The translations under genes and the position numbers were made by a program. Shown here piece after piece: positions 6,265-52,709 of a stretch of DNA of 64,000 nt. The notes under the pieces are model-generated. The model had not been told where the DNA came from. It saw only the letters and a list, made by a program, of their open reading frames with translations, and did not search any database. Location of the stretch: IMG/VR virus record IMGVR_UViG_3300018421_000013, positions 42,334 to 106,333 of that record. The stretch is one strand, 5' to 3'. Positions within the stretch are counted from its first letter, which is position 1; the number at the start of each line of letters is the position of its first letter. The stretch comes from a virus.

Positions 6265-9087
6265 CTAAGCGTTAGAAATAACATGCGGATAAGTTACGAA
6301 ATCGTCAGCGTCAATGAATGTGTATTGTTGCTCAAGAATCTGATTACGAACTGTCGGTGAGAAGAATACATCTTCGTCCTCGAATATAACATCTTGCGAT
6401 GCACTAATAATAATAGTTGGAGAATAGAAAATATTCTCATTCAACAACGCAACAGTAGATTTCAATTCAAAATCAATAGATTCAGATGAAGATAGAATAT
6501 CTAATTTTACGTCAGTGGTAGCTAAATAACCGCCAAACGGTTTGGTTCCAGCAACATGTAATACTTTAATTAAAGTATCTTTATAAGCATCGAAAGGCAA
6601 CGCCGTTAATACTTTATAAGAATATTCTTGATAAAAATCGTTATCTTGAAGATATTTATCTGAAGATAAAAATGATCTTCTATTAGTATGATATCCTATT
6701 CCAACACCTTGTTTGCCTAGATATCCAGTAACTGAAATAGTTTTACTGGAATCATCTGATGATACTAATGTCAAATCTTCTTCTTCAAAATATCCAAATC
6801 CAGAATCTACTACTTCAACTGCGGTAGCAAATCCATCACCAGTAAAAGCTTCAGATTTTACTATAGCGTTTAAACCAGTTCTTTGTTCTCTTCTTTCAAC
6901 ATAAGTACCATTATAATATTCTGGCGGGCCTTCTATAATAGTTGCAGAAAAATTAGTATCTTCTGAAGTTACAATTTCACCCGGAATAAAATTGTTGTCT
7001 AAATCTAATCTAGTAATTTTTAACGTTAAATTTTCTCTATCATGCACTCGCAACCTTCCACGAGTACCAGAAGTCTGTCCAATCAATGCTTCACCAATAT
7101 TAAAATTAAGACCTTGTGTAGATCCGGGTGGCAATTCGTATTCTGCAAAAAAATCGTATTTTTCTATATGGTACATTCTTGGTTCATATATAATAAAAAA
7201 TGGATCTGCTGCATAACCTCGACCAGGATTTCTACTTACTATTCCTTCTATGGAACCAATAGTAATATCTTCCCAAGGGCCAAGAGTTTGCACTAAAGTA
7301 TCGTTAAATCCTCTATCAAAGTTATTATTAACTTGGTATAAGTTAGAACCAATAATAGTACTTTCTGGGATTGCACTGATTAACGTATCATTAAAAGATT
7401 CTGGTATAATAACTTCTTCATTATACCCTACGATTTCAAAATTAGCTTCGGTTTCAAAGCCGGATATTGTTGTAATATTAAATGATGTTTCTACTGGATT
7501 ACCTAATGCGTCTTGAACATAACAAGAACCATTATAAAAGGTATTAACAATATTAATTATTCCTAGATTAGTGTTTGAAAAATTACCAGCACCAATAGCG
7601 GGAAAACTTACACCATCTCGTTCTCTTTCTAAAGGATAATCTGTTCTAATACAACCAACACCATAAACTATATCAGCATAACTTTCACCGAGTTCAATAT
7701 TTGAATATGCTTTTGAAACAGTACAATTAGCAAATAATTTTCTGTAATTCCCACCAGCATCGGTATTAATTGTATAGTATTGTTCTAAAATATCTCCAGC
7801 ATTTAATACACCCCCAGAAGAATCATATGTAATTGTTGCTGTATTAGAATATCCTATTACATTAGCAGACGCAGATACGCTAGTAGAACTTACTACATTA
7901 GAAACAAACGTATTACCAGTTAAATATATTTCATCTCCCAAATTACCAGCAGAATATGTATTAGAACTATAATTTACTACAATAGTTCCTTCAGTATCTC
8001 CAGCTTCATATGTAGAGCTTACAATAGTTCCAGTAAAAGTTATATTATTACCAACGTCATATGAAGTTACAGTTTCACCTATACTAAACTCTTCTGGATC
8101 TGCTACAGTAGCATCATAATCAACTGATAATAAATCTTGCTTTACATTTTCAAATTGCATTACCGGGGTTCTTCTATATAAGAAGTCATTTCCGTCTGGA
8201 TAAAAAGATCCAGTTACGCCTTCAATAGTATAATCTCTAGTAATTAAAACACGATCCGAACCTATAATTTCAGCGTTAGCTGTGTATCCCCACCCACCAT
8301 CTAATAGTTCAAAATCGATTACACCAACATAACTAGTAACGTCAGTAATTCTTCCAATACCTTTTTTCCCAGCACCATCTTCAACATAAGTAGTTTCTCC
8401 TAATTCAAATCCAGAATCACTACGATTAATACTAAACTTACTTAATGATCCTACAATTTTAGTAGTAACATTTGTGTCTTTAAATAATGTTGAAACTTGC
8501 TCGCCGGTTTTAAAATTTGTTTCTGTAACATTAGCTAAATATAAAACGCTAATAAATCTAGTATCTTTTTTTACTTTAACTAATCTTTCTACATAAGCTT
8601 CAGCACCAGTCTTATTACCTCTAATAATTTCACCAACCATTTGAATATTTGTTGGTGATTCAACAACTTCTAAATATTGTACATCTACCCATTCATTATC
8701 TGATAATCTAAATAAATCATCTGAGGGGTAATATACTTGTGCTTCTAATCCGTGTATTAATTTAAAAAACAAATCTATTGCACGCGGTGTACCTTTAGAT
8801 CTATAAAAATCTAATGAATTTTTTATGAATAACTGTTTATTAGACGCAGTAGTAAACTGGATGTTAGAAAGATATTTTTGTTTAAAGAAAACTATAAAAT
8901 CTTCAATAACTTTATCAATATCACGATAATCGGGTAATCTTCTAGCGTGATAATATATCTGATTTTCAGATTCTAACCACTCATAATATGCTTTTACAAA
9001 TGAAATAAACATTTGTCCTTCTTCCCGATAAAATTCTGGGAATAGTCTTTCTGTAAAAGGACTTATGTATTTTTCTAGTTCTTTCAT
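6265..9087 (-). CDS. 7: Baseplate wedge protein gp7
   Basis: The 940-aa product starts MKELEKYISPFTERLFPEFY and continues with the helical N-terminal region (residues 20-130: EEGQMFISFVKAYYEWLES, FFKQKYLSNI, SLDFYRSKGTPRAIDLFF) found in gp7 of marine T4-like phages. This part resembles the N-terminal part of phage wedge proteins that pack on gp6. The remaining 800 residues are beta-rich repeats. T4 gp7 is 1032 aa, so the length is comparable. Its ATG overlaps the gp6 stop (TAATG), so the two are translationally coupled. It acts at the wedge core that initiates baseplate assembly. Confidence 0.85.
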   Translation of the reverse strand: MKELEKYISPFTERLFPEFYREEGQMFISFVKAYYEWLESENQIYYHARRLPDYRDIDKVIEDFIVFFKQKYLSNIQFTTASNKQLFIKNSLDFYRSKGTPRAIDLFFKLIHGLEAQVYYPSDDLFRLSDNEWVDVQYLEVVESPTNIQMVGEIIRGNKTGAEAYVERLVKVKKDTRFISVLYLANVTETNFKTGEQVSTLFKDTNVTTKIVGSLSKFSINRSDSGFELGETTYVEDGAGKKGIGRITDVTSYVGVIDFELLDGGWGYTANAEIIGSDRVLITRDYTIEGVTGSFYPDGNDFLYRRTPVMQFENVKQDLLSVDYDATVADPEEFSIGETVTSYDVGNNITFTGTIVSSTYEAGDTEGTIVVNYSSNTYSAGNLGDEIYLTGNTFVSNVVSSTSVSASANVIGYSNTATITYDSSGGVLNAGDILEQYYTINTDAGGNYRKLFANCTVSKAYSNIELGESYADIVYGVGCIRTDYPLERERDGVSFPAIGAGNFSNTNLGIINIVNTFYNGSCYVQDALGNPVETSFNITTISGFETEANFEIVGYNEEVIIPESFNDTLISAIPESTIIGSNLYQVNNNFDRGFNDTLVQTLGPWEDITIGSIEGIVSRNPGRGYAADPFFIIYEPRMYHIEKYDFFAEYELPPGSTQGLNFNIGEALIGQTSGTRGRLRVHDRENLTLKITRLDLDNNFIPGEIVTSEDTNFSATIIEGPPEYYNGTYVERREQRTGLNAIVKSEAFTGDGFATAVEVVDSGFGYFEEEDLTLVSSDDSSKTISVTGYLGKQGVGIGYHTNRRSFLSSDKYLQDNDFYQEYSYKVLTALPFDAYKDTLIKVLHVAGTKPFGGYLATTDVKLDILSSSESIDFELKSTVALLNENIFYSPTIIISASQDVIFEDEDVFFSPTVRNQILEQQYTFIDADDFVTYPHVISNA

Positions 9088-43686: not shown

Positions 43687-44355
43687 TTAAGCTGTAACAG
43701 TAAGTGTTGCGTTATCAGATACAACTGTTTGTGTTGTACCTGAACCAGAAACTGTTACACGAACAATTGTTTGGTCAGCAATCGTATTAGCATCTGCTGT
43801 TAATGTATTTGTACCTTGACCCGAGAATCCTGATACACCATCTGCAGTAGCAAATGTTCCAGTATCTCCTGGCGTAGTAGTATATTCCCAAGCATATGAA
43901 AGAGTATTTTCAAATCCAGTAGGAGCTGTAGCAGCAACTAAAGCAAAGTTAATTTGCTCATTACCACTTGCAGAACCGGACGCATCAATAAATTGACCAG
44001 TAATACTGATGAGATAATCAGGTACAACTGCATCATCAGCACCATCACCTTGCATTGCATTGTGTGAAAATGCAACTAATGTTTCATAATGAACTCGTCC
44101 TGCACGACCACCAGTACCTTCTGTACGTAAAGCCCAACCCGGTGAAGCTGGTCTTGATGAGCCACTAGCGCGTAACGCTTTAATTTCGTTTCTATCAACG
44201 CCATATTGTCCAACTGTTACGCCTGCTTGATATGCATCAGCAGTAGTATTGCCATAAAGAGCATTACGCTCTGAAGCAGATACTGGCTTACTAACTTGCA
44301 TAGTAGCAAACACTGCTGAATTAGACGCAGCGTCAGAATTTCCCCATTGAGCCAT
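43687..44355 (-). CDS. Virion protein with C-terminal Ig-like domain
   Basis: The 222-aa product begins MAQWGNSDAASNSAVFATMQ and has ERNALYGNTTADAYQAGVTV, GQYGVDRNEIKAL, GWALRTEGTGGRAGRVHYET, LVAFSHN, a start conserved in small structural proteins of marine phages. Residues about 125-222 look like an Ig-like beta sandwich (LSYAWEYTTTPGDTGTF, ASGTTQTVVSDNATLTV). Probably capsid- or tail-associated. It ends at a palindromic hairpin. Confidence 0.75.
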   Translation of the reverse strand: MAQWGNSDAASNSAVFATMQVSKPVSASERNALYGNTTADAYQAGVTVGQYGVDRNEIKALRASGSSRPASPGWALRTEGTGGRAGRVHYETLVAFSHNAMQGDGADDAVVPDYLISITGQFIDASGSASGNEQINFALVAATAPTGFENTLSYAWEYTTTPGDTGTFATADGVSGFSGQGTNTLTADANTIADQTIVRVTVSGSGTTQTVVSDNATLTVTA

Positions 44356-44356
44356 T

Positions 44357-44680
44357 TTAGTTTTCCTCTTCTATGATTAACATATCTAAAAGATATTTAG
44401 ATTTTTTACTTATTAATTTTATTTGACCTTTATGGACTAAATACGTTTCGTTCGGATTTAATCTAGAAAAGTCAACGTTATATTCTTTATTTATTAATTC
44501 TTCCGACCCAGTTCTAATTTCTTTTACAACTTCATTGACAATTTCAATAACGGGTCTAGGCCTATCAGGTCTAGCCCATTCACCAACATCAGTTCTTTCA
44601 ATATGACTTGCAGCTCGAGCATCTTTCCAGCCTCTTACTGCAGCTCTTCTTTCATCATTTGTATTTCTAATAATAGGCAT
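44357..44680 (-). CDS. Hypothetical phage protein (107 aa)
   Basis: Arg-rich N-terminal part (RNTNDERRAAVRGWKDARAA, GEWARPDRPRPVIEIVNEVV) and a C-terminal half with NPNETYLVHKGQIKLISKKS. The ATG follows the 711-aa gene (TAATG). No family recognised. It is probably co-expressed with the virion proteins on both sides. Confidence 0.6.
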   Translation of the reverse strand: MPIIRNTNDERRAAVRGWKDARAASHIERTDVGEWARPDRPRPVIEIVNEVVKEIRTGSEELINKEYNVDFSRLNPNETYLVHKGQIKLISKKSKYLLDMLIIEEEN

Positions 44681-46815
44681 TATTTTTTCTTCTTAGAAGG
44701 TTCACTTCCGCATGAAGCTTCGTCTTGCATTTCTTTTTTAGCAATTGATTTACGACGCTTATGTAAAAATCGATCTGATTCATCTTCATCACCATCATTG
44801 TCAACATCTTTATCTTTACGATTTTTAAATTTTTTCAATGCTTGTGATTTATCTACTAGGTCAGTATCTTCATATTTTGCTTTTTTCTTAGAAGACATAT
44901 ACTTTTCTACTACTGAAGTATAATCTTTTTCTTGAGCTTGAACATTATTTTCTTTTAGCATAGAAATAAACATTTCTATTGATTCTTCTTCAAAATAAGA
45001 ATCTAAAATACTACGTAAAACTTCTTCTGGTACACAATTTGGCACTTCTTTTCCTCCTTTCTTTTTTGTACCTACCATTTCATAACCTTTCCAGCATGGA
45101 TCTTTTCCTTTCATTTTTTTATTTCCTTCTTCAACGCCAGTAGGTTTAACGCCAGGCTTCTTTTTATTTCCTAATCTTTGTTTTTCTCTTTCGGCCTGAG
45201 CCTTTTCAGTCTCGGTACGATTATCACGATATGTCTGTTCTTTTTGATAATGATGTTGTTTGTTTTTATTTCTATAATCAGCTACAGCATTACGAGCACC
45301 TTTATCATTTGTTCTCATGCTAGGATGTCCAAAATACGCGCGGTGATATGCATCTGCTTCTCCTTTTGCGTGTTCTTTCTTCTTATATGCCTGAGATCCA
45401 AGATATGTTGTTTTACCATTTTTATCTTTTAAATGCGCGCGGTGGCCTCCAAATTGAGATTTTTCACTACTCGACGTATAACCTTGACCGTGAGCGTGTT
45501 TAATCCTTTGCAAACCACCCTCTTCTTTAAGTCCTGATTTCTTCCATGTATCAGCTGCTTGTTTTACTGCTGCTATTCCACCTTTTGCTAATCTAATTCT
45601 TAATAATCTTTTACCTGCAGGAGGAAGTCTATCATGTAATTTCAAAGCATCAGCAGCATCTTTTTCTGATACTCTTCCAGTTTTACCCATATGAAATTCT
45701 ACATCCATATTACCTTTAACATCTACTGCTTTACGTAATTGCATAATAATATTTTTATCTGCTTTATCGTATGAACCACGTGCATTTTTAGAAGGCGTAG
45801 GCTTTGCGGGAGATTTTTTCTTATCAACTACCATACCCAATTCTTGCTTAAGTGCGTCTAATCTTTTTTGCGCTTGAGGATTAGATTTTGCTCGCTTTTC
45901 TAAATTTTTTAATTTAATTTTTTGAGCAGGAGTAATATCTTCTTTTTGTACATAAAGCTTTTTCGCCGCGGCTCGCATTGCTTCACGTTGAGATTTATAT
46001 TTGCCCAGGCTTTGTCCGTCGACACTTACGCTATAATGTCCAGTGTCGGGGTAATGCTTTACTGCAACTTTTTTACCACGCATATTATATGTATTACTAT
46101 TATCTCTAAGTTCATCTAACGCTTCTTCTTCTTTCGCAAGACGATTTCTCACATTACCAAATGATTTATTTTGTGAAGCAGACTTTTGTCGTTTTTGAAG
46201 TCTTTTATCTTTTGCTGAAGCAACTGATAAAGAACTTGGACTATAATCCTTCATTTTATTTCCAAAAGCTACTTTTACGAAGTCTTTACCTACTGTCATA
46301 ACTCGACCTTTTTTGCCATCTTTAGTCATTACTGTAGATCCTTCAGGAAATCTTCCTGAATTTTGTGCGATATTTTTTCTTAAAGACTCTTCCATTTCAT
46401 CTCCAGCTAAATTTTCTTTTCCTGAGATTCTATTACGTAATGCTGCTCTTATTTTAGCATCATTAGTTCTATCAACACCTTTTAATAAAGATGCTTTCTT
46501 AATTAATTTACGCATTTTAATTTTAACATCTGATGCAGTGTCTGCATCCATATAAAAACGTGGAAATCCATCGATGTCTACGCTAAATTTTGCTTCAAAA
46601 ATTTTCATAGTTTGTTCTGGGCCTAAATGCTTAGCGAAAGACATTGCAACATCATCATTTTTCTTAAGAACTTTAATTTCAGCTTTCCCTGGCATTTGAC
46701 CTTTTTGTAATTTATCAACAACTCTACGTACTTTAACATCAGTACGTGCTAAAGATTCTAATTCTTTAGCAATCTTTTTTAATTTATTTTTATCTAATGC
46801 TTCTTCTATTTTCAT
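44680..46815 (-). CDS. Large mosaic basic head-interior-like protein
   Basis: The 711-aa, Lys-rich product is built from distinct modules: a helical start (MKIEEALDKNKLKKIAKELE), a KOW-like strand (GKKGRVMTVGKDFVKVAFGN), a SVDGQSLGKYKSQREAMRAA unit, a basic Pro/Lys linker, GHRAHLKDKNGKTTYLGSQA, the CWKGYEMVGTKKKGGKEVPN motif known from marine phage core-type proteins, and DVDNDGDEDESDRFLHKRR, a calcium-loop-like acidic motif. It ends CGSEPSKKKK. Fused small modules like these are typical of marine T4-like prohead or head-interior proteins. The specific role is not established. Confidence 0.6.
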   Translation of the reverse strand: MKIEEALDKNKLKKIAKELESLARTDVKVRRVVDKLQKGQMPGKAEIKVLKKNDDVAMSFAKHLGPEQTMKIFEAKFSVDIDGFPRFYMDADTASDVKIKMRKLIKKASLLKGVDRTNDAKIRAALRNRISGKENLAGDEMEESLRKNIAQNSGRFPEGSTVMTKDGKKGRVMTVGKDFVKVAFGNKMKDYSPSSLSVASAKDKRLQKRQKSASQNKSFGNVRNRLAKEEEALDELRDNSNTYNMRGKKVAVKHYPDTGHYSVSVDGQSLGKYKSQREAMRAAAKKLYVQKEDITPAQKIKLKNLEKRAKSNPQAQKRLDALKQELGMVVDKKKSPAKPTPSKNARGSYDKADKNIIMQLRKAVDVKGNMDVEFHMGKTGRVSEKDAADALKLHDRLPPAGKRLLRIRLAKGGIAAVKQAADTWKKSGLKEEGGLQRIKHAHGQGYTSSSEKSQFGGHRAHLKDKNGKTTYLGSQAYKKKEHAKGEADAYHRAYFGHPSMRTNDKGARNAVADYRNKNKQHHYQKEQTYRDNRTETEKAQAEREKQRLGNKKKPGVKPTGVEEGNKKMKGKDPCWKGYEMVGTKKKGGKEVPNCVPEEVLRSILDSYFEEESIEMFISMLKENNVQAQEKDYTSVVEKYMSSKKKAKYEDTDLVDKSQALKKFKNRKDKDVDNDGDEDESDRFLHKRRKSIAKKEMQDEASCGSEPSKKKK

Positions 46816-47354
46816 TTTAATGGTCTTTTAGTTTTTTTAAGGAGGATACTAAATCCTTCTTTGTGTTGTTGAAATTTCATCCTCATAAACTTTACCGGAT
46901 AATTTTCTAATTTTCTTAACCACCACCAATATGGTCTAACCGTAACATGAGCATTTTTTCCATTCTCTAATATAAGTTTTGCTGGAACACAACTAATACC
47001 TAAAAGTAAATACCCGTTGAGTTTAACTTTACTCATTAATTGTGTTAAAAACAAATTTAAATACTCAAGTTCAATATGTTCTAAAACATCAAAACACATT
47101 ACAAAATTTTGTGGTTCTGGTTCAACATTAAATCTTTCTACATGTGGATCGTATCCAATCCAAGGAATATCTAATCTTCTCTCTAACGCTCCTTTACCAC
47201 AACCATAATCTAAAACTGTATCACGATAGTGAAGATCATTAAGAGTTACGTAAAGATCTCGTATATAAGATTTAGGACCATTTCCCCATCCCGGTTTATT
47301 TTTATGTGTATTTTTTAATACTTCTCCGTATTCATCACTCCATGTCTGTTGCAT
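46812..47354 (-). CDS. SAM-dependent methyltransferase
   Basis: The 180-aa product has a class I methyltransferase layout: DTVLDYGCGKGALERRLDIP (motif I), WIGYDPHVERFNVEPEPQNF, VMCFDVLEHIELEYLNLFL and KLNGYLLLGISCVPAK. It is placed between head-interior genes; the substrate is unknown. The start overlaps the upstream gene by 20 nt. Confidence 0.85.
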   Translation of the reverse strand: MQQTWSDEYGEVLKNTHKNKPGWGNGPKSYIRDLYVTLNDLHYRDTVLDYGCGKGALERRLDIPWIGYDPHVERFNVEPEPQNFVMCFDVLEHIELEYLNLFLTQLMSKVKLNGYLLLGISCVPAKLILENGKNAHVTVRPYWWWLRKLENYPVKFMRMKFQQHKEGFSILLKKTKRPLK

Positions 47355-47589
47355 TTTCTTCTTCCTCAGAAGAAGTTTCTACTTCGGCGTCACTGATAAC
47401 ATCTTGTACTTCTGCAGAAACTTCTTGGCCTAAATCTTCTGATTCTACTGGCGCGGGAATTTCTGCTGATGGAATTTCAATTCCATATTTTTGCATTAAG
47501 CCTGCCGAATACAAATCATTTTGCTTCGATAAAACATCGTTAATTGCACTTACTAATCCTTTAGGATAATCTTTCAATGGATCACTCAT
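47335..47589 (-). CDS. Acidic head-interior-like protein (84 aa)
   Basis: Begins SDPLKDYPKGLVSAINDVLS, then QNDLYSAGLMQKYGI and an acidic end (SEDLGQEVSAEVQDVI, ETSSEEEENATDME). Strongly acidic small proteins of this sort occur in the prohead core region. No family recognised. Confidence 0.55.
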   Translation of the reverse strand: MSDPLKDYPKGLVSAINDVLSKQNDLYSAGLMQKYGIEIPSAEIPAPVESEDLGQEVSAEVQDVISDAEVETSSEEEENATDME

Positions 47590-47591
47590 AA

Positions 47592-48029
47592 TTATTTCAC
47601 CTGTGTTGTTTTGTTTTTAGTTTGAGCGTCTTGTAATCGTGCTGAATCCAACATACGATCGTGTCGACGCTTATCATTTTTTAGTTCACGAGAAATTCGA
47701 ACTTTAGCTCTTTTTTCTGCTTCCCCTTCATTCATTACTGCCTCACCATAAAAAGCAGACTTCACTGCTCTATGAACCAACATCTTAGCTTTCTTTTCAT
47801 CGGCACTATGAGACTTCATTACCATTTGAATAGCCTGATCCATATTCTGAGCAGAACCAATTACTCTAAGAATTTTTTCATTTTGGGCAGATCTTTTCTT
47901 ACCTTCATTTATTTTAGATTTTTTCTTTTTATCAGGATGTCCTTTTCCACCATCTGCTTTCGCAGCATGGACAGCTTTTCTTTGGGCATCTGATACATAA
48001 CCTTCTACAAATTCGTTAAAAGTTTTCAT
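47592..48029 (-). CDS. Basic internal head-like protein with IP-type N-terminus
   Basis: The 145-aa protein starts MKTFNEFVEGYVSDAQRKAV. Compared with the T4 internal proteins (MKTYQEFIAEA), the Met-Lys-Thr-aromatic-x-Glu-Phe-hydrophobic-Glu pattern is retained; in T4 it targets proteins to the prohead and is cut by gp21 after Glu. The rest is Lys/Arg/Ala/Gln-rich helix. It is coupled to the nucleotidyltransferase gene (48029 shared base). Confidence 0.65.
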   Translation of the reverse strand: MKTFNEFVEGYVSDAQRKAVHAAKADGGKGHPDKKKKSKINEGKKRSAQNEKILRVIGSAQNMDQAIQMVMKSHSADEKKAKMLVHRAVKSAFYGEAVMNEGEAEKRAKVRISRELKNDKRRHDRMLDSARLQDAQTKNKTTQVK

Positions 48030-49579
48030 TAGTTACAATTCCATCTCTTTAGTGACATAGCCTTACGTGTCGGCCTACCCTTTTCATCTTTCATAGGTCC
48101 TTTCATACCACTCATACGGGCACAAAAAGACTTACGCCTTTTAGCCGCTTTACTACCAGCTTTTAATTTACTTGGCTTGGTAGTTACAGCGGTTTGCAAT
48201 TTACTACCAGGATTTTTTCTACGATAAGCATCTACGCCTTTCTTCGTTAAACCAGCACCGTCTTCAGTAGGTCTCTTGTGACCCTTTGAATCATCTCCTC
48301 TTTTATTTGGCTTATCATCTTCACTAATAGCTAATTCATAATTCAGATTATTGAAAGCGTATTGTTCTTCGTCTAAATGCGTATTCGTAGGATCCCATTC
48401 TTTTTTATAATTAATATAGATGTCTCTGATATCTTCATATGCAATGTTATACTTATCAGCTTTTTTACGAAGATTTTTTTCTACATTTTGACTAATAGTT
48501 TTAATGTGTAATTCATTTACCATCGACATTAAAGCATCATAATCTAAACTTTCTTTTTTAGGACCATCAGTTACTCTAGAAACTTTTCCTTTACCACCTT
48601 TAGCTTTACGTAATCTTTCTACTTCTGCTTTACGAACTTTTGGTAATAATCTTTTTGCTAGTCTTCCAATCAATGCTTTTTTCTTTTCAACCTTTTTGTC
48701 TACTTCTATCCTTGCACTGATTGGTAAGTTTTTATAATTAGCACCACGAGAGCCTGCTAGTTTAGCTCTTAAAATATCTCGTGCTTTTCTTCTTGATCTA
48801 GTTTGTAGTTTTTCGGGGCGGGCCATGCGAGTTTTCGCAATACGTCGACCGCGCTTAATTTTGCCGGCAATACGACGCATAATAATTTTTTTCTTCATTC
48901 TTTGCTGCAATGTTAAAGTTTCATCTAAAGATAATTCTTCAGAAATACCCATTGCTGATCTAATCTTATTATACATTTCTTTTGATTCTTGATTTGACAT
49001 TTTCCTAGGTAATCCTTTCTTATACTCAGAGAATTGACCAGAGACAGCTAATTGTCTAAGCTTAGACGCTGACATACCTGATACATCATCTGCATCAGGA
49101 TCTCGTTCTCCAGCTGAAACAACCTTAATAGACTTAAATTTAAAATCTTTATTATTATATTTATTTACAATTCTGGTAAACTCTGTAACTCTATCGCTTC
49201 CAACAACAATAGTAACATTATCAAAAGTGTTTTGTATTTCTTTTAAAACGTCAAATATTGTTTTAGAATTAGAACGCTTTACAATATCACCAAAAGCTTT
49301 TTGTGTATATTTAAGCTTATCGTTATATGATAAAGGATTCTTTTTCTTATCTTGAGAATGGGATAGATATAAATGAGGTTGCGCTTTCTTTGAACGCGCT
49401 ATTGATGTTATCTTATCAACTAATTTTTGATGTCCAATTGTAGGAGGATTCATTCTTCCAAACGAAAGGACTACGGCAGACCCGATTTCTTCGGATATCA
49501 ACGAAGTGTCGGTTTTGACATCTGTGATGGTACGCCCTTGACCATCAGTTTGAGGAGTAATTATCTTTTTTTCTTTCAT
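48029..49579 (-). CDS. Nucleotidyltransferase fused to basic DUF6321-like domain
   Basis: The 516-aa product has an N-terminal nucleotidyltransferase at about residues 33-205: VVLSFGRMNPPTIGHQKLVD holds the T/HxGH nucleotide site and SGMSASKLRQLAVSGQF resembles the ISxxxLR motif; GSDRVTEFTR lies between. A long Lys/Arg-rich middle follows (residues about 225-345). The C-terminus (GLTKKGVDAYRRKNPGSKLQ, RKSFCARMSGMKGPMKDEKG, RPTRKAMSLKRWNC) matches the DUF6321-type end seen in marine phage proteins. Adenylyl or cytidylyl transfer is likely; the substrate (for example a nicotinamide nucleotide) is unknown. Confidence 0.75.
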   Translation of the reverse strand: MKEKKIITPQTDGQGRTITDVKTDTSLISEEIGSAVVLSFGRMNPPTIGHQKLVDKITSIARSKKAQPHLYLSHSQDKKKNPLSYNDKLKYTQKAFGDIVKRSNSKTIFDVLKEIQNTFDNVTIVVGSDRVTEFTRIVNKYNNKDFKFKSIKVVSAGERDPDADDVSGMSASKLRQLAVSGQFSEYKKGLPRKMSNQESKEMYNKIRSAMGISEELSLDETLTLQQRMKKKIIMRRIAGKIKRGRRIAKTRMARPEKLQTRSRRKARDILRAKLAGSRGANYKNLPISARIEVDKKVEKKKALIGRLAKRLLPKVRKAEVERLRKAKGGKGKVSRVTDGPKKESLDYDALMSMVNELHIKTISQNVEKNLRKKADKYNIAYEDIRDIYINYKKEWDPTNTHLDEEQYAFNNLNYELAISEDDKPNKRGDDSKGHKRPTEDGAGLTKKGVDAYRRKNPGSKLQTAVTTKPSKLKAGSKAAKRRKSFCARMSGMKGPMKDEKGRPTRKAMSLKRWNCN

Positions 49580-49654
49580 AGTTTCCGGAGATTGCCTTAG
49601 CCTTATCCAAACAAATACAGGTCTGCCATAGCCTAAACTGTATTAAAGTATTTA

Positions 49655-50434
49655 TCAAATTTTGTATTTTAAGAATTCATCATAATCGGTTATTAAGTTA
49701 TAACCAATAAGTTCTTTTATAAAATGTGGATTTAAAATAGAATTTATTTTTTCTATAACATGCCAATCTAATTTAATTTTAAAGTTAGCATAATAATCTC
49801 TTCTTTCTTGAGTAAAATCATTTGATTGACTTACTTTACCAGGTATGCTAATTTCGTCCATTGGTCTTTCGTAACGTACACCCCAATGCGGCAATGCTTT
49901 TGACAAAAAACTATGCGCGCCATATTTCGTATTAGTAATTATATCTTCGTATTTAAATGTTTGTATGTTTTTACGTTGCGAAAATTCCCACCACCATATA
50001 GTGTGTTCTTGCCATAATCTAATAGCTTCCGCTATGTTAATATCATTTCTCGAAAATAAATTCCATTCATCTTGGTTTTGTTTATTTTTCCTAGTGACTC
50101 TAGGATATGTTTTTTTGATATCGACTTGCTTATCAGTTATACTATAAGCCCAAGCATAAGGATGCTTAACTAGATGTAATACTTTTAATTCACCACTATC
50201 TATTTTATCTACTAACTTTTGGAAACTAAAATCTACGTTACTGGGATTGGGTCCAGGTATTCCATTTGGACTATCTAATGCCCAAGCGTGTTTCCAAAAT
50301 CCACCATTTCTATATGTATTTCTACAATTGCCATTATAACCGCCAGTTAAGTTTTGCTTAATTAATGCTTCAACAAAATTAGTACCACTTCGTTGAATGC
50401 CTGCAACGACAAACGCAACTTCTTCTTTTGCCAT
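49655..50434 (-). CDS. Sulfotransferase family protein
   Basis: From the ATG at 50434 (GGGA site 7 nt before) the 259-aa product opens with a PAPS-type P-loop, VVAGIQRSGTNFVEALIKQN. It continues with VLHLVKHPYAWAYSITDKQ, equivalent to the 3'-phosphate loop, and TFKYEDIITN, usual for the C-terminal part of the fold. These fit cytosolic/phage sulfotransferases that use PAPS. Target unknown. A longer frame to 50458 would overlap the upstream gene. Confidence 0.8.
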   Translation of the reverse strand: MAKEEVAFVVAGIQRSGTNFVEALIKQNLTGGYNGNCRNTYRNGGFWKHAWALDSPNGIPGPNPSNVDFSFQKLVDKIDSGELKVLHLVKHPYAWAYSITDKQVDIKKTYPRVTRKNKQNQDEWNLFSRNDINIAEAIRLWQEHTIWWWEFSQRKNIQTFKYEDIITNTKYGAHSFLSKALPHWGVRYERPMDEISIPGKVSQSNDFTQERRDYYANFKIKLDWHVIEKINSILNPHFIKELIGYNLITDYDEFLKYKI

Positions 50435-50445
50435 TCTATTCCCTA

Positions 50446-51675
50446 CTACTTTTCCCAACCCTTAATCACCTCAGGTGAAAAGTTAGCGTAGGAAAATTCC
50501 ATTCTATCTACTATCTTCACCGCATCATTTGTAAGATGATCTATAGCAACAAATCCTTCTTGATTAGTAACTTTAAATCCTTTGCGCGTTTTAAGAAAAG
50601 TACCAATGTTACTAGCATGATTCATTTTATCTACGATCAATTGTTTAGCGTCTACCAATAGATTCATCAATTCAAAGATTAATTGTATTTGAGACGCATT
50701 ATATTTAGTAAATACCGATAATGCTTGTTTTTGTTTTTCTGCAATCTTATCTTTAGCAGCCTGTGTTTTTCTCTTAGACATTTCTTTTTTATAATAATCT
50801 ATAATATAATTACTTAAAAGACGAGCATGAGTTTTAGGATTAATTTTTTTCTGTTGCCTAACAAACGTATTATTAAATGTTTTTGTACGCATATGTAATT
50901 CTTCATTTGTACTAAACTCATTTAATAATGCAGCAGGAATTTTATTAAATATGCGGCCGGCCTGAGATAAAATTGAAGTTACTTGATTTGTTTCAGCTAC
51001 CGTGAATGTAGCATTGCCAGAAAGATCTTGATAAGTGGCATCCATCTGCCAAATTTTAGGAGATTGTTTAAACTTACTTGTAATGTTTTTTGCAAATGCA
51101 GCAGACATTGTTTCAAAAGATTTGCCAGTATATGTAGTATGCCAAACAATTCCTATATCAGCAGCTAATAATTGACGTGCTGCAGGCGTTCCCGCGGGAA
51201 TCGCATACATGATAGTATTAGGTTGGAACGTAATATAATTTACGCCATCAATTTTAGTTTTACTAAGATCACCTTTGGTAAACATCAAGTCGCCTTGATA
51301 AACTCCAGACTTAACGCCTAAAGTAGAAAAGCTATTGAACGCTTGTATTAGTTTTGCCTGAAGATCTCCAGAAGTATCTGCTTTAACGTCTTCAACACTT
51401 TTATAAACTTTAGGATTCTTATTGAATACGCCTTTTTTAGCAACAAAGAATTTTCCGTCCGAAGGATCCACACCGACGAATACAGCGGGTGCACCATCCC
51501 ACTTGACAGTGCGTGATATTTGAGTCCTAGAATGACCGGCCAACATATCTCGTAAATCACGTAAAAAATTAATCGCTTTTCTAGTTCCATTAACTCCTTC
51601 ATTGAAGATTAGATCTTCAACATGTTCCATGTGAGTATTTTTAGCTTCGATAAGATATGAATTAAATTTTAACAT
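50446..51675 (-). CDS. RNA ligase/nucleotidyltransferase-like DUF6267 protein
   Basis: The 409-aa product begins MLKFNSYLIEAKNTHMEHVE. NEGVNGTRKAINFLRDLRDM, RTVKWDGAPAVFVGVDPSDG and FFVAKKGVFNKNPKVYKSVE follow the DUF6267 pattern of marine T4-like phages. K-W-DG-A-P is a KxDG ligase motif I at about residue 59, and VYQGDLMF could be motif III. The start MLKFNSYLIEA parallels the T4 internal-protein signal MKTYQEFIAEA, with LIE before the expected gp21 cut. The start codon lies only 6 nt downstream of a -10 hexamer. Confidence 0.75.
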   Translation of the reverse strand: MLKFNSYLIEAKNTHMEHVEDLIFNEGVNGTRKAINFLRDLRDMLAGHSRTQISRTVKWDGAPAVFVGVDPSDGKFFVAKKGVFNKNPKVYKSVEDVKADTSGDLQAKLIQAFNSFSTLGVKSGVYQGDLMFTKGDLSKTKIDGVNYITFQPNTIMYAIPAGTPAARQLLAADIGIVWHTTYTGKSFETMSAAFAKNITSKFKQSPKIWQMDATYQDLSGNATFTVAETNQVTSILSQAGRIFNKIPAALLNEFSTNEELHMRTKTFNNTFVRQQKKINPKTHARLLSNYIIDYYKKEMSKRKTQAAKDKIAEKQKQALSVFTKYNASQIQLIFELMNLLVDAKQLIVDKMNHASNIGTFLKTRKGFKVTNQEGFVAIDHLTNDAVKIVDRMEFSYANFSPEVIKGWEK

Positions 51676-51681
51676 GTTACT

Positions 51682-51710
51682 ATTCTACACTATTTTTATG
51701 AAAAAGTACA
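51682..51710 (-). promoter_or_regulatory. Early-type promoter P6 positioned for leaderless transcription
   Basis: Minus strand TGTACT, 17 bp, TAGAAT; its TACTTTTTCATAAAAATA core matches the P1-P3 promoters. The -10 ends 6 nt before the ATG at 51675, so the expected +1 falls on or next to the start codon. No ribosome site is possible in between. Confidence 0.7.
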
Positions 51711-51752
51711 CCATTTTTTTAGACTGTTTTATTATATACTTATTCTTTTTTG

Positions 51753-52709
51753 TTATATACTTTGTGTCGTTCCGACAATTTTTCCAGCTGGAAATACACC
51801 AATCCTTGCATTTCCTACAAACAATCCAGCGACACGTGCCCCTCGGTCACTCGTATATCTAGCAAAATAAATACATTCATATCCACCGCTTTTAGGTATA
51901 TCCCCGTTCTTTCCTTTATGATTAGATTTTATTTCGTAAACTTTACCACTCTTTTTTAGAGTCATACTTCCCTGGTGGAATTCATCGACATTTTCAATTC
52001 CGCGGGCTGCACCATAATTAACACCATAAATTGATTTAGTAATAATAGAATTATCTTTTACTAATCTCGCAACCGAACTTTTTGGGGGTAAACCATTAGG
52101 AAATTTTTTAGCGCAATCCTTCATAAATTTCTTAACTTCAGTACTACTATTAAATGTAGAGTCTGATAATCCACCATATTGTTGAAAATCACTTGGCTTT
52201 CTTCCAGCTTTGTGTGATAACCAACCAGTTTGATTACCATCGACATCAACAATACTAAAATCAGATTTTGGTGCTCGTCTACCAGTTTGAGGCGTACTTA
52301 TAATTCCTGCGCAATTTATAATTCTTCCACCACATCTTAATCTTATACTAGATGTTTTTTCAATTTCAAATACGGCGTTTAATTTACCTTTAAATTCAGT
52401 TAAATAAAAATCTTCTGCCGCTGTGCCTGAACCAGCGCCTTTGCCACCAAATTCTGGTGTTTTAAAAAATTCTTTTGGATATTCAACAACAACTGGTCCT
52501 CCACCAACTACTTTACCTTTAAACGAACCGCTGTAACCAGGAATATCCATTGCAGCATATAAACCATCAAATTGTTTTTTATCAAAGATAACGCTACCTT
52601 TAGCTGTAAAAAACTCAGTACCGTCTTTAATTTTTGCTACAAAAATTTTTAATCTTTCGCCGCCACGTTTACGCAAATCATTGTGTTGTAAAACTTTATA
52701 TTCGGCCAT
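51753..52709 (-). CDS. Late protein with nuclease-like PD-(D/E)XK pattern, unassigned
   Basis: The 318-aa product contains DFYLTEFKGKLNAVFEIEKT, then RRAPKSDFSIVDVDGNQTGW, LSHKAGRKPSDFQQYGGLSD. The E...PKSDF...SHK order resembles the core of PD-(D/E)XK nucleases, with H replacing the usual E/Q. A later GMTLKKSGKVYEIKS-type strand and GLFVGNARIGVFPAGKIVG end it. I recall related proteins from large marine phages, without a function. It has a perfect late promoter, so it is made late and may be virion-borne. Confidence 0.55.
   Translation of the reverse strand: MAEYKVLQHNDLRKRGGERLKIFVAKIKDGTEFFTAKGSVIFDKKQFDGLYAAMDIPGYSGSFKGKVVGGGPVVVEYPKEFFKTPEFGGKGAGSGTAAEDFYLTEFKGKLNAVFEIEKTSSIRLRCGGRIINCAGIISTPQTGRRAPKSDFSIVDVDGNQTGWLSHKAGRKPSDFQQYGGLSDSTFNSSTEVKKFMKDCAKKFPNGLPPKSSVARLVKDNSIITKSIYGVNYGAARGIENVDEFHQGSMTLKKSGKVYEIKSNHKGKNGDIPKSGGYECIYFARYTSDRGARVAGLFVGNARIGVFPAGKIVGTTQSI

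Follow-up and report, generated by a model that had tools for sequence, protein, structure and literature searches.

The Alt protein of bacteriophage T4 is an enzyme carried in the phage head, and with the internal proteins IPI, IPII and IPIII it shares an N-terminal tag of about ten residues, with F/Y at position 4, F/Y at 7, L/I at 8 and E at 10. Mutational data on the ten-residue capsid-targeting sequence (CTS) of IPIII assign residues 4 and 7 to targeting and residues 8 and 10 to cleavage by the phage protease gp21, and basic CTS proteins related to those of T4 have been noted for phages T2 and T6 (PMC9026906). Head packaging, proteolytic maturation and delivery to the host are likewise features of the DarA/DarB/Hdf proteins of phage P1 and of the ejection proteins of phiKZ/SPN3US, but the P1 and giant-phage systems differ from the T4-type tag in their proteases and signals (PMC12810830, PMC7411985). 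Here these systems are compared with a block of minus-strand genes in a 64,000-nucleotide stretch of virus DNA (the window: bases 42334-106333 of the 106,333-base IMG/VR record IMGVR_UViG_3300018421_000013). T4-type genes for adaptor, neck, terminase, sheath, tube and replication are present in the record, with a portal-length open reading frame (ORF) after the tube gene, and the source of the record is a T4-like virus with marine-type bacteria as hosts.

With a probability of about 0.74, the block is judged to be a locus for the cargo of a head-delivery system of the T4 type, in which a DUF6267 protein and a 145-residue basic protein would be packaged, trimmed by gp21 and injected. The aromatic residues 4 and 7 of a detachable N-terminal CTS would bind the prohead core, gp21 would then cleave after Glu10, and the mature proteins would remain with the packaged DNA, enter the cell along with it and presumably act early in infection. 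A preliminary description, made from the sequence alone, had called the block a candidate for an undescribed system, a label that does not hold, as the mechanism would be the CTS/gp21 route of T4 with different cargo. The window resembles T4 in its tag, in a small basic protein with an IPI-like start and in the presence of gp21 in relatives, and differs in that the cargo is unrelated, the genes lie beside replication rather than head genes and the tag occurs on many enzyme families. A full-text literature search joining capsid targeting with cyanophages, to whose coverage many subscription papers did not belong, returned only the T4 review (PMC9026906). The CTS of T4 is already known, as is NMNAT in cyanophage virions, treated as possible carry-over in the accessible text of those reports; the link between tag and enzyme cargo appears to be new, and amounts to a variation on an established mechanism.

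Two T4-type N-termini

Both N-termini from which the proposal arose, at 51675 and 48029 on the minus strand, are present exactly as quoted. The DUF6267 protein begins MLKFNSYLIE followed by Ala, matching all four T4 CTS positions (F4, Y7, L8 and E10, with A11 next), and the tag stretch holding F4 and Y7 reads MLKFNSYLIEAK; the Leu-Ile-Glu pointed out earlier indeed precedes the expected gp21 cut, in exact T4 register including A11. The tag also appears to be separable from the enzyme. The PF19782 model begins at residue 13, leaving the tag outside, and residues 1-15 are unstructured in the AlphaFold model (pLDDT < 50). Relatives start with MLKFASFLKE-EKNTHM, MKKFSTYLAE-AKNTHM and the like, some with insertions between tag and domain.

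The 145-residue protein begins MKTFNEFVEG, with aromatic residues F4 and F7 in place and V8, E9 and G10 one residue off the T4 cleavage register. The FVE cut formerly assigned to it is thus matched at its targeting residues but, with Glu at position 9, FVE before Gly is an imperfect gp21 site, and a better [LI]xE site (INE before Gly) is found at residues 40-43. The same MKTF-EF start is seen in T4 IPI (MKTFKEFTST). In eight genomes the E9 variant (class B) gave four matches where about 1.3 would be expected, and three of the four are plausible, so the case for the 145-residue protein rests on its likeness to IPI and not on statistics. For DUF6267, packaging by a T4-type peptide has good support; for the 145-residue protein it is plausible. 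From these comparisons we infer that this phage itself packages both and trims them with gp21.

Eight of the ten residues of MKTFNEFVEG resemble MKTFNEFLEE, which is found on two proteins of a related locus (L185). These are adjacent and unrelated (7826-8242 and 8239-8628), with a tagged DUF6267-NMNAT fusion upstream, in which both enzymes stand behind a single tag. One of the two is RyR-like (PF02026, E=7e-5, below the cut-off), and the RyR-like family has a member shown to degrade cyclic ADP-ribose (cADPR) immune signals (PMC13232231). An RyR-like protein and an NAD synthetase were searched for in the window's record, and neither was found.

Recurrence of the tag and its presence in virions

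The strict pattern was defined as Met, one to four residues, an aromatic residue, two residues, an aromatic residue, L/I/V/M, one residue and Glu. In the window's 106-kb record alone it occurs once against 0.24 expected, which is not compelling. Across 12 T4-like genomes, 36 ORFs begin with it; permuting the residues found at each N-terminal position gave 4.5 +/- 2.2 (no more than 13 in any of 300 shuffles), and against this the excess is compelling. The matches of T4 itself include IPII and IPIII. A 54-residue T4 ORF (NC_000866, 18966-19130) starting MKTFKEFIKEDMV also has a full CTS-like start.

Loci around relatives of DUF6267 and of the NMNAT-like enzyme, 160 in all, gave 247 matches against 4.1 expected from internal positions. 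Most of these (189/247) were DUF6267 or NMNAT relatives, so the family was taken as the independent unit; with the first 14 residues cut off, the matches formed 27 clusters, a few of which look like chance. In these loci the tag is carried by over 20 protein families that are unrelated to each other. Within the tag, positions 4, 7 and 8 are uniform and 5, 6 and 9 variable, the pattern itself restricting positions 4, 7 and 8 and fixing 10. The residue after Glu is often E, K, Q or D besides A, G or S, which is looser than the T4 cleavage consensus.

The distribution of the tag is that of a modular element. Of the distinct NMNAT-like proteins, roughly half have a tag, either strict or variant, and the untagged copies, among them the nearest relatives of the window's, include ones that start directly at the catalytic domain. 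In C48C1 and Melnitz, close relatives whose DUF6267 copies are tagged, the basic region of the window's NMNAT fusion has a stand-alone counterpart, strictly tagged in C48C1. For the cytidyltransferase of C48C1 (L004 23515; OQ984149 63514) the annotated start seems to lie too far downstream; an earlier start in the same frame yields MIKNFSQYLLEEEREVYFTFGRMNPPT, which has a CTS. Six neighbouring genes of S-CRM01 (L226, g126-g131) form a run with CTS-like N-termini. Tagged HAD proteins, close to polynucleotide kinase (PNK) phosphatases, and tagged PNK/Zeta-toxin-like P-loop proteins lie near DUF6267/NMNAT genes (L009 9384-10004, L152 3227-3904, L053/G001 131148-131753), which suggests a packaged nucleic-acid end-repair set.

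Published virion proteomes agree with the tag. In S-CREM2 (OR473000) the strict tag is found on three of 196 annotated coding sequences, namely an S-adenosylmethionine (SAM) hydrolase, an APH-like kinase and a cytidylyltransferase, and all three are in the virion mass spectrometry (MS) list (PMC10665884), a coincidence with p=0.015 against all coding sequences and 3.4e-5 against non-structural enzymes only. The fourth such S-CREM2 enzyme is Cas9-like and carries LRFASFMAEA further in, at residues 17-26; its homologues in S-N03, MA01, S-B68 and S-CRM01 have the motif at about the same place. At the S-CREM2 loci L089-L092 (3837-5081, 7704-10313, 10579-12846), CTS-like starts stand on the SAM hydrolase and the APH/ChoK kinase, and the Cas9-like nuclease has its motif internally. 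An NMNAT-like enzyme has been reported in the virions of S-CREM2 (PMC10665884), S-SZBM1 (PMC9146016), S-SCSM1 (PMC9602691) and S-SM1 (PMC3037559), in each case as a tagged copy (MKNFSSFLTEA, MRFRQFIIEA, MKSFLQFLKEA, MKKFSAFLNEA); the untagged virion NMNAT of S-CBWM1, a non-T4 phage, was excluded from this count. The S-CRM01 kinase, cited as a virion protein, begins MISFDQFLSEK. In the syntenic block of S-SCSM1, seven of the ten genes 89-98 (89-93, 95 and 97) are annotated as virion proteins. Where virion proteomes exist, then, most tagged proteins are in the particle, above all the NMNAT-like enzyme.

Several observations weigh against head delivery. DUF6267 is in neither the S-SZBM1 nor the S-CREM2 virion table, nor in any other virion proteome that could be read, and in S-SZBM1 and S-CRM01 it begins MAKNTH or MAKDGKNVH, without a tag. 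The window's NMNAT copy is itself untagged, and HTVC008M has no strict-motif match. A tagged family of 105 residues was undetected in the virion MS data of S-SZBM1 and S-SCSM1, and the proteome authors themselves caution that caesium chloride virion preparations can carry soluble proteins. Finally, gp21 was not found in the window's record by PF03420 or by T4 and two cyanophage gp21 queries, a result put down to the end of that record lying shortly past gp20; in favour of delivery, gp21 (PF03420) was present in 11/11 records searched, T4 included. The 105-residue family (S-SZBM1_191, OL473597 122311-122628; MK867354 44215-44535) has the start MK[ST]FK[SQ]F[LM]SESVNISGDFNGNLY[IV]NS, a perfect CTS.

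Enzymes and basic proteins of the block

The minus-strand run spans 43687-52709 of the window, in the order of Table 1 from upstream to downstream, with a further product of 107 residues between the mosaic protein and the phrog_613 head protein. The members named in the preliminary description (the nucleotidyltransferase fusion, the 711-residue mosaic, the acidic protein and the methyltransferase) are all present, and a sulfotransferase-like gene between DUF6267 and the cytidyltransferase had been overlooked; S-SCSM1 also has an annotated sulfotransferase elsewhere. Some relatives of the upstream neighbour have a CTS, such as the L178 homologue (E=2.3e-105). The view of the block as a set carried in the head is partly supported, by the CTS of DUF6267 and of the 145-residue protein and by the occurrence of NMNAT relatives and of modules of the 711-residue protein in virion proteomes; packaging of the methyltransferase, the acidic protein or the sulfotransferase-like protein is unsupported.

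Table 1. Features of the gene block, in window coordinates
Feature	Position	Strand	Basis
phrog_13937 protein, 318 aa, upstream neighbour, without CTS in the window copy	51753..52709	-	E=1.9e-48
Predicted CTS of DUF6267, MLKFNSYLIE, predicted cut after E10, before A11	51646..51675	-	T4 residue match
DUF6267 protein, 409 aa	50446..51675	-	PF19782 E=4.5e-104; phrog_455
Sulfotransferase-like protein, 267 aa, without CTS	49655..50458	-	PF00685 E=2.9e-8
Fusion, 516 aa: NMNAT/NaMNAT/PPAT-fold adenylyltransferase, basic K/R-rich region and C-terminal DUF6321, without CTS	48029..49579	-	phrog_3041 E=5.6e-67; DUF6321 E=2.3e-19
Predicted CTS variant of the 145-aa protein, MKTFNEFVEG	48000..48029	-	likeness to T4 IPI start
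Basic protein, 145 aa, pI 10.1, predicted internal head protein	47592..48029	-	ORF and composition
Acidic protein, 84 aa, pI 4.1, orphan	47335..47589	-	ORF
Methyltransferase, 180 aa	46812..47354	-	Methyltransf_23 E=2.5e-7
Basic mosaic protein, 711 aa, pI 9.8	44680..46815	-	phrog_4359, phrog_22379
Member of PHROG 'head protein' family, 222 aa, at block edge	43687..44355	-	phrog_613 E=2.9e-7

The DUF6267 family is found in 464 phage records, and the window's copy matches its profile over the full length (349 bits against a cut-off of 27), adding to the described family (PF19782, phrog_455) the predicted CTS and ligase-like motifs. In S-PM2 DUF6267 is fused to the cytidyltransferase, whereas in the window the two are separate genes. 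The K58xDG, Q127GD, E373GFV and K387 motifs are invariant or nearly so in 35 relatives, and residues K58, D60, G61, Q127, D129, E373, G374 and K387, which do not vary among the 35, follow the motif pattern of covalent nucleotidyltransferases. DUF6267 is likely, on these motifs, to be a divergent ATP- or NAD-dependent nucleotidyltransferase/ligase. The 35 members gave no match to Pfam ligase families, hhalign against T4 Rnl2 gave a probability of 0.1, and Foldseek with the DUF6267 model returned no significant solved-structure match, the lowest E being about 1 and the weak matches including LigA and RNA ligases. The term 'ligase-like' used at the outset is apt for KxDG and the further nucleotidyltransferase motifs but does not extend to profile or fold. 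The reading of DUF6267 as an established ligase was rejected, there being no significant hidden Markov model or fold similarity to known ligases, and it is kept as a motif-based lead.

In Foldseek the cytidyltransferase domain of the fusion resembles PPAT structures as well as nicotinate-nucleotide adenylyltransferase (8aih, E=1.7e-5), the matches being split between NadD and CoaD, and TxGH and SxSxxR-type motifs are kept in its relatives. This fold and these motifs make dinucleotide synthesis likely; the NMNAT-like domain probably acts on NAD, and its relatives are likely to make NAD(P)-type dinucleotides. Action on host RNA or nucleotides had been suggested, of which the second fits NMNAT and the first has no showing. 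The NMNAT fold and the tagged HAD/PNK-like proteins of relatives make it a reasonable but unproven reading that the delivered proteins act as a set on NAD and on the ends of nucleic acids. The virion NMNAT-like proteins of S-SCSM1, S-SZBM1, S-CREM2 and S-SM1 share a homologous catalytic domain and mostly the same place in gene order; the window's copy differs from them in being untagged and fused to DUF6321. As far as their accessible text goes, the four reports (PMC9602691, PMC9146016, PMC10665884, PMC3037559) leave carry-over possible and name no targeting signal.

The 145-residue protein has no full-length homologue among isolates, and a module of 28 residues is common to it and mosaic proteins of relatives. 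The 711-residue protein starts MKIEEA, with an early IxE site before Ala. Its CWKGY-type module occurs in the virion proteins S-SZBM1_139 and S-CREM2 gp160, and its DNDGD-like module in the virion protein S-SCSM1_92 (E=0.002 over 38 residues). More widely, modules of the CWKGY type, the DNDGD type, DUF6321 SFCARM and SDAQRKAVHAAKADGGKGHPD are shuffled among the basic proteins of these phages, including the window's 44680-46815, 48029-49579 and 47592-48029 and many in relatives, and some of them are in known virion proteins.

Competing explanations and significance

Of the other explanations, the one that survives best, and still an unlikely one, is that the tagged proteins have a structural role, in the prohead core or in DNA binding, like T4 gp67, gp68 and IPIII, and serve head assembly instead of being injected as effectors. 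The 145- and 711-residue proteins would belong here, and NMNAT and DUF6267 would be carried along with no function in the new cell. The strongly basic character of these proteins (pI 10.1, 9.8 and 9.6) and the K/R-rich regions fused to NMNAT are consistent with this, as is the effect of T4 IPIII on head assembly (PMC9026906). Conservation of the catalytic motifs of DUF6267 and NMNAT argues the other way, and the other tagged proteins (SAM hydrolase, kinases and a PNK-like P-loop protein) make little sense as scaffold.

It is improbable that DUF6267 and the NMNAT-like enzyme are ordinary intracellular auxiliary enzymes, their detection in virions reflecting carry-over of abundant proteins and the N-terminal likeness being incidental or ancestral. 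The untagged cyanophage DUF6267 and window NMNAT would fit, the proteome authors themselves warn of carry-over, and the block adjoins gp41/uvsX and nrd genes, that is, a region of replication and nucleotide metabolism. Set against this are the motif statistics, the agreement with T4 positions defined by mutation, and the fact that tag and MS detection coincide in S-CREM2 and on the four NMNAT copies. Least probable of all is a conserved amphipathic element with a membrane, replication-compartment or translation-start role: the loose residue after Glu would allow it, and we know of no experiment on CTS function outside T4, but the shared T4 register, the motif on T4 IPII and IPIII, gp21 in all complete relatives and the MS agreement speak against it.

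If head delivery holds, the tag provides a sequence rule predicting which proteins T4-like phages inject with their DNA. Enzymes have been seen in cyanophage virions by several teams, with cargo and contamination undistinguished, and the tag offers a direct test. DUF6267 and the NMNAT-like enzymes become candidates for delivery at the start of infection, when restriction and NAD-depletion defences act. It is a tentative further idea, held at somewhat less than even odds, that the T4 peptide serves T4-like phages of marine bacteria quite generally as an interchangeable address label and that the head-delivered enzymes, acting as soon as infection begins, form a counter-defence and repair kit. 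If true, the cargo of this label would comprise NMNAT-like proteins that may restore NAD, SAM hydrolases, kinases, Cas9-like nucleases, proteins resembling PNK and HAD and also DUF6267, which would then be a new ligase of nucleic acids or nucleotides.

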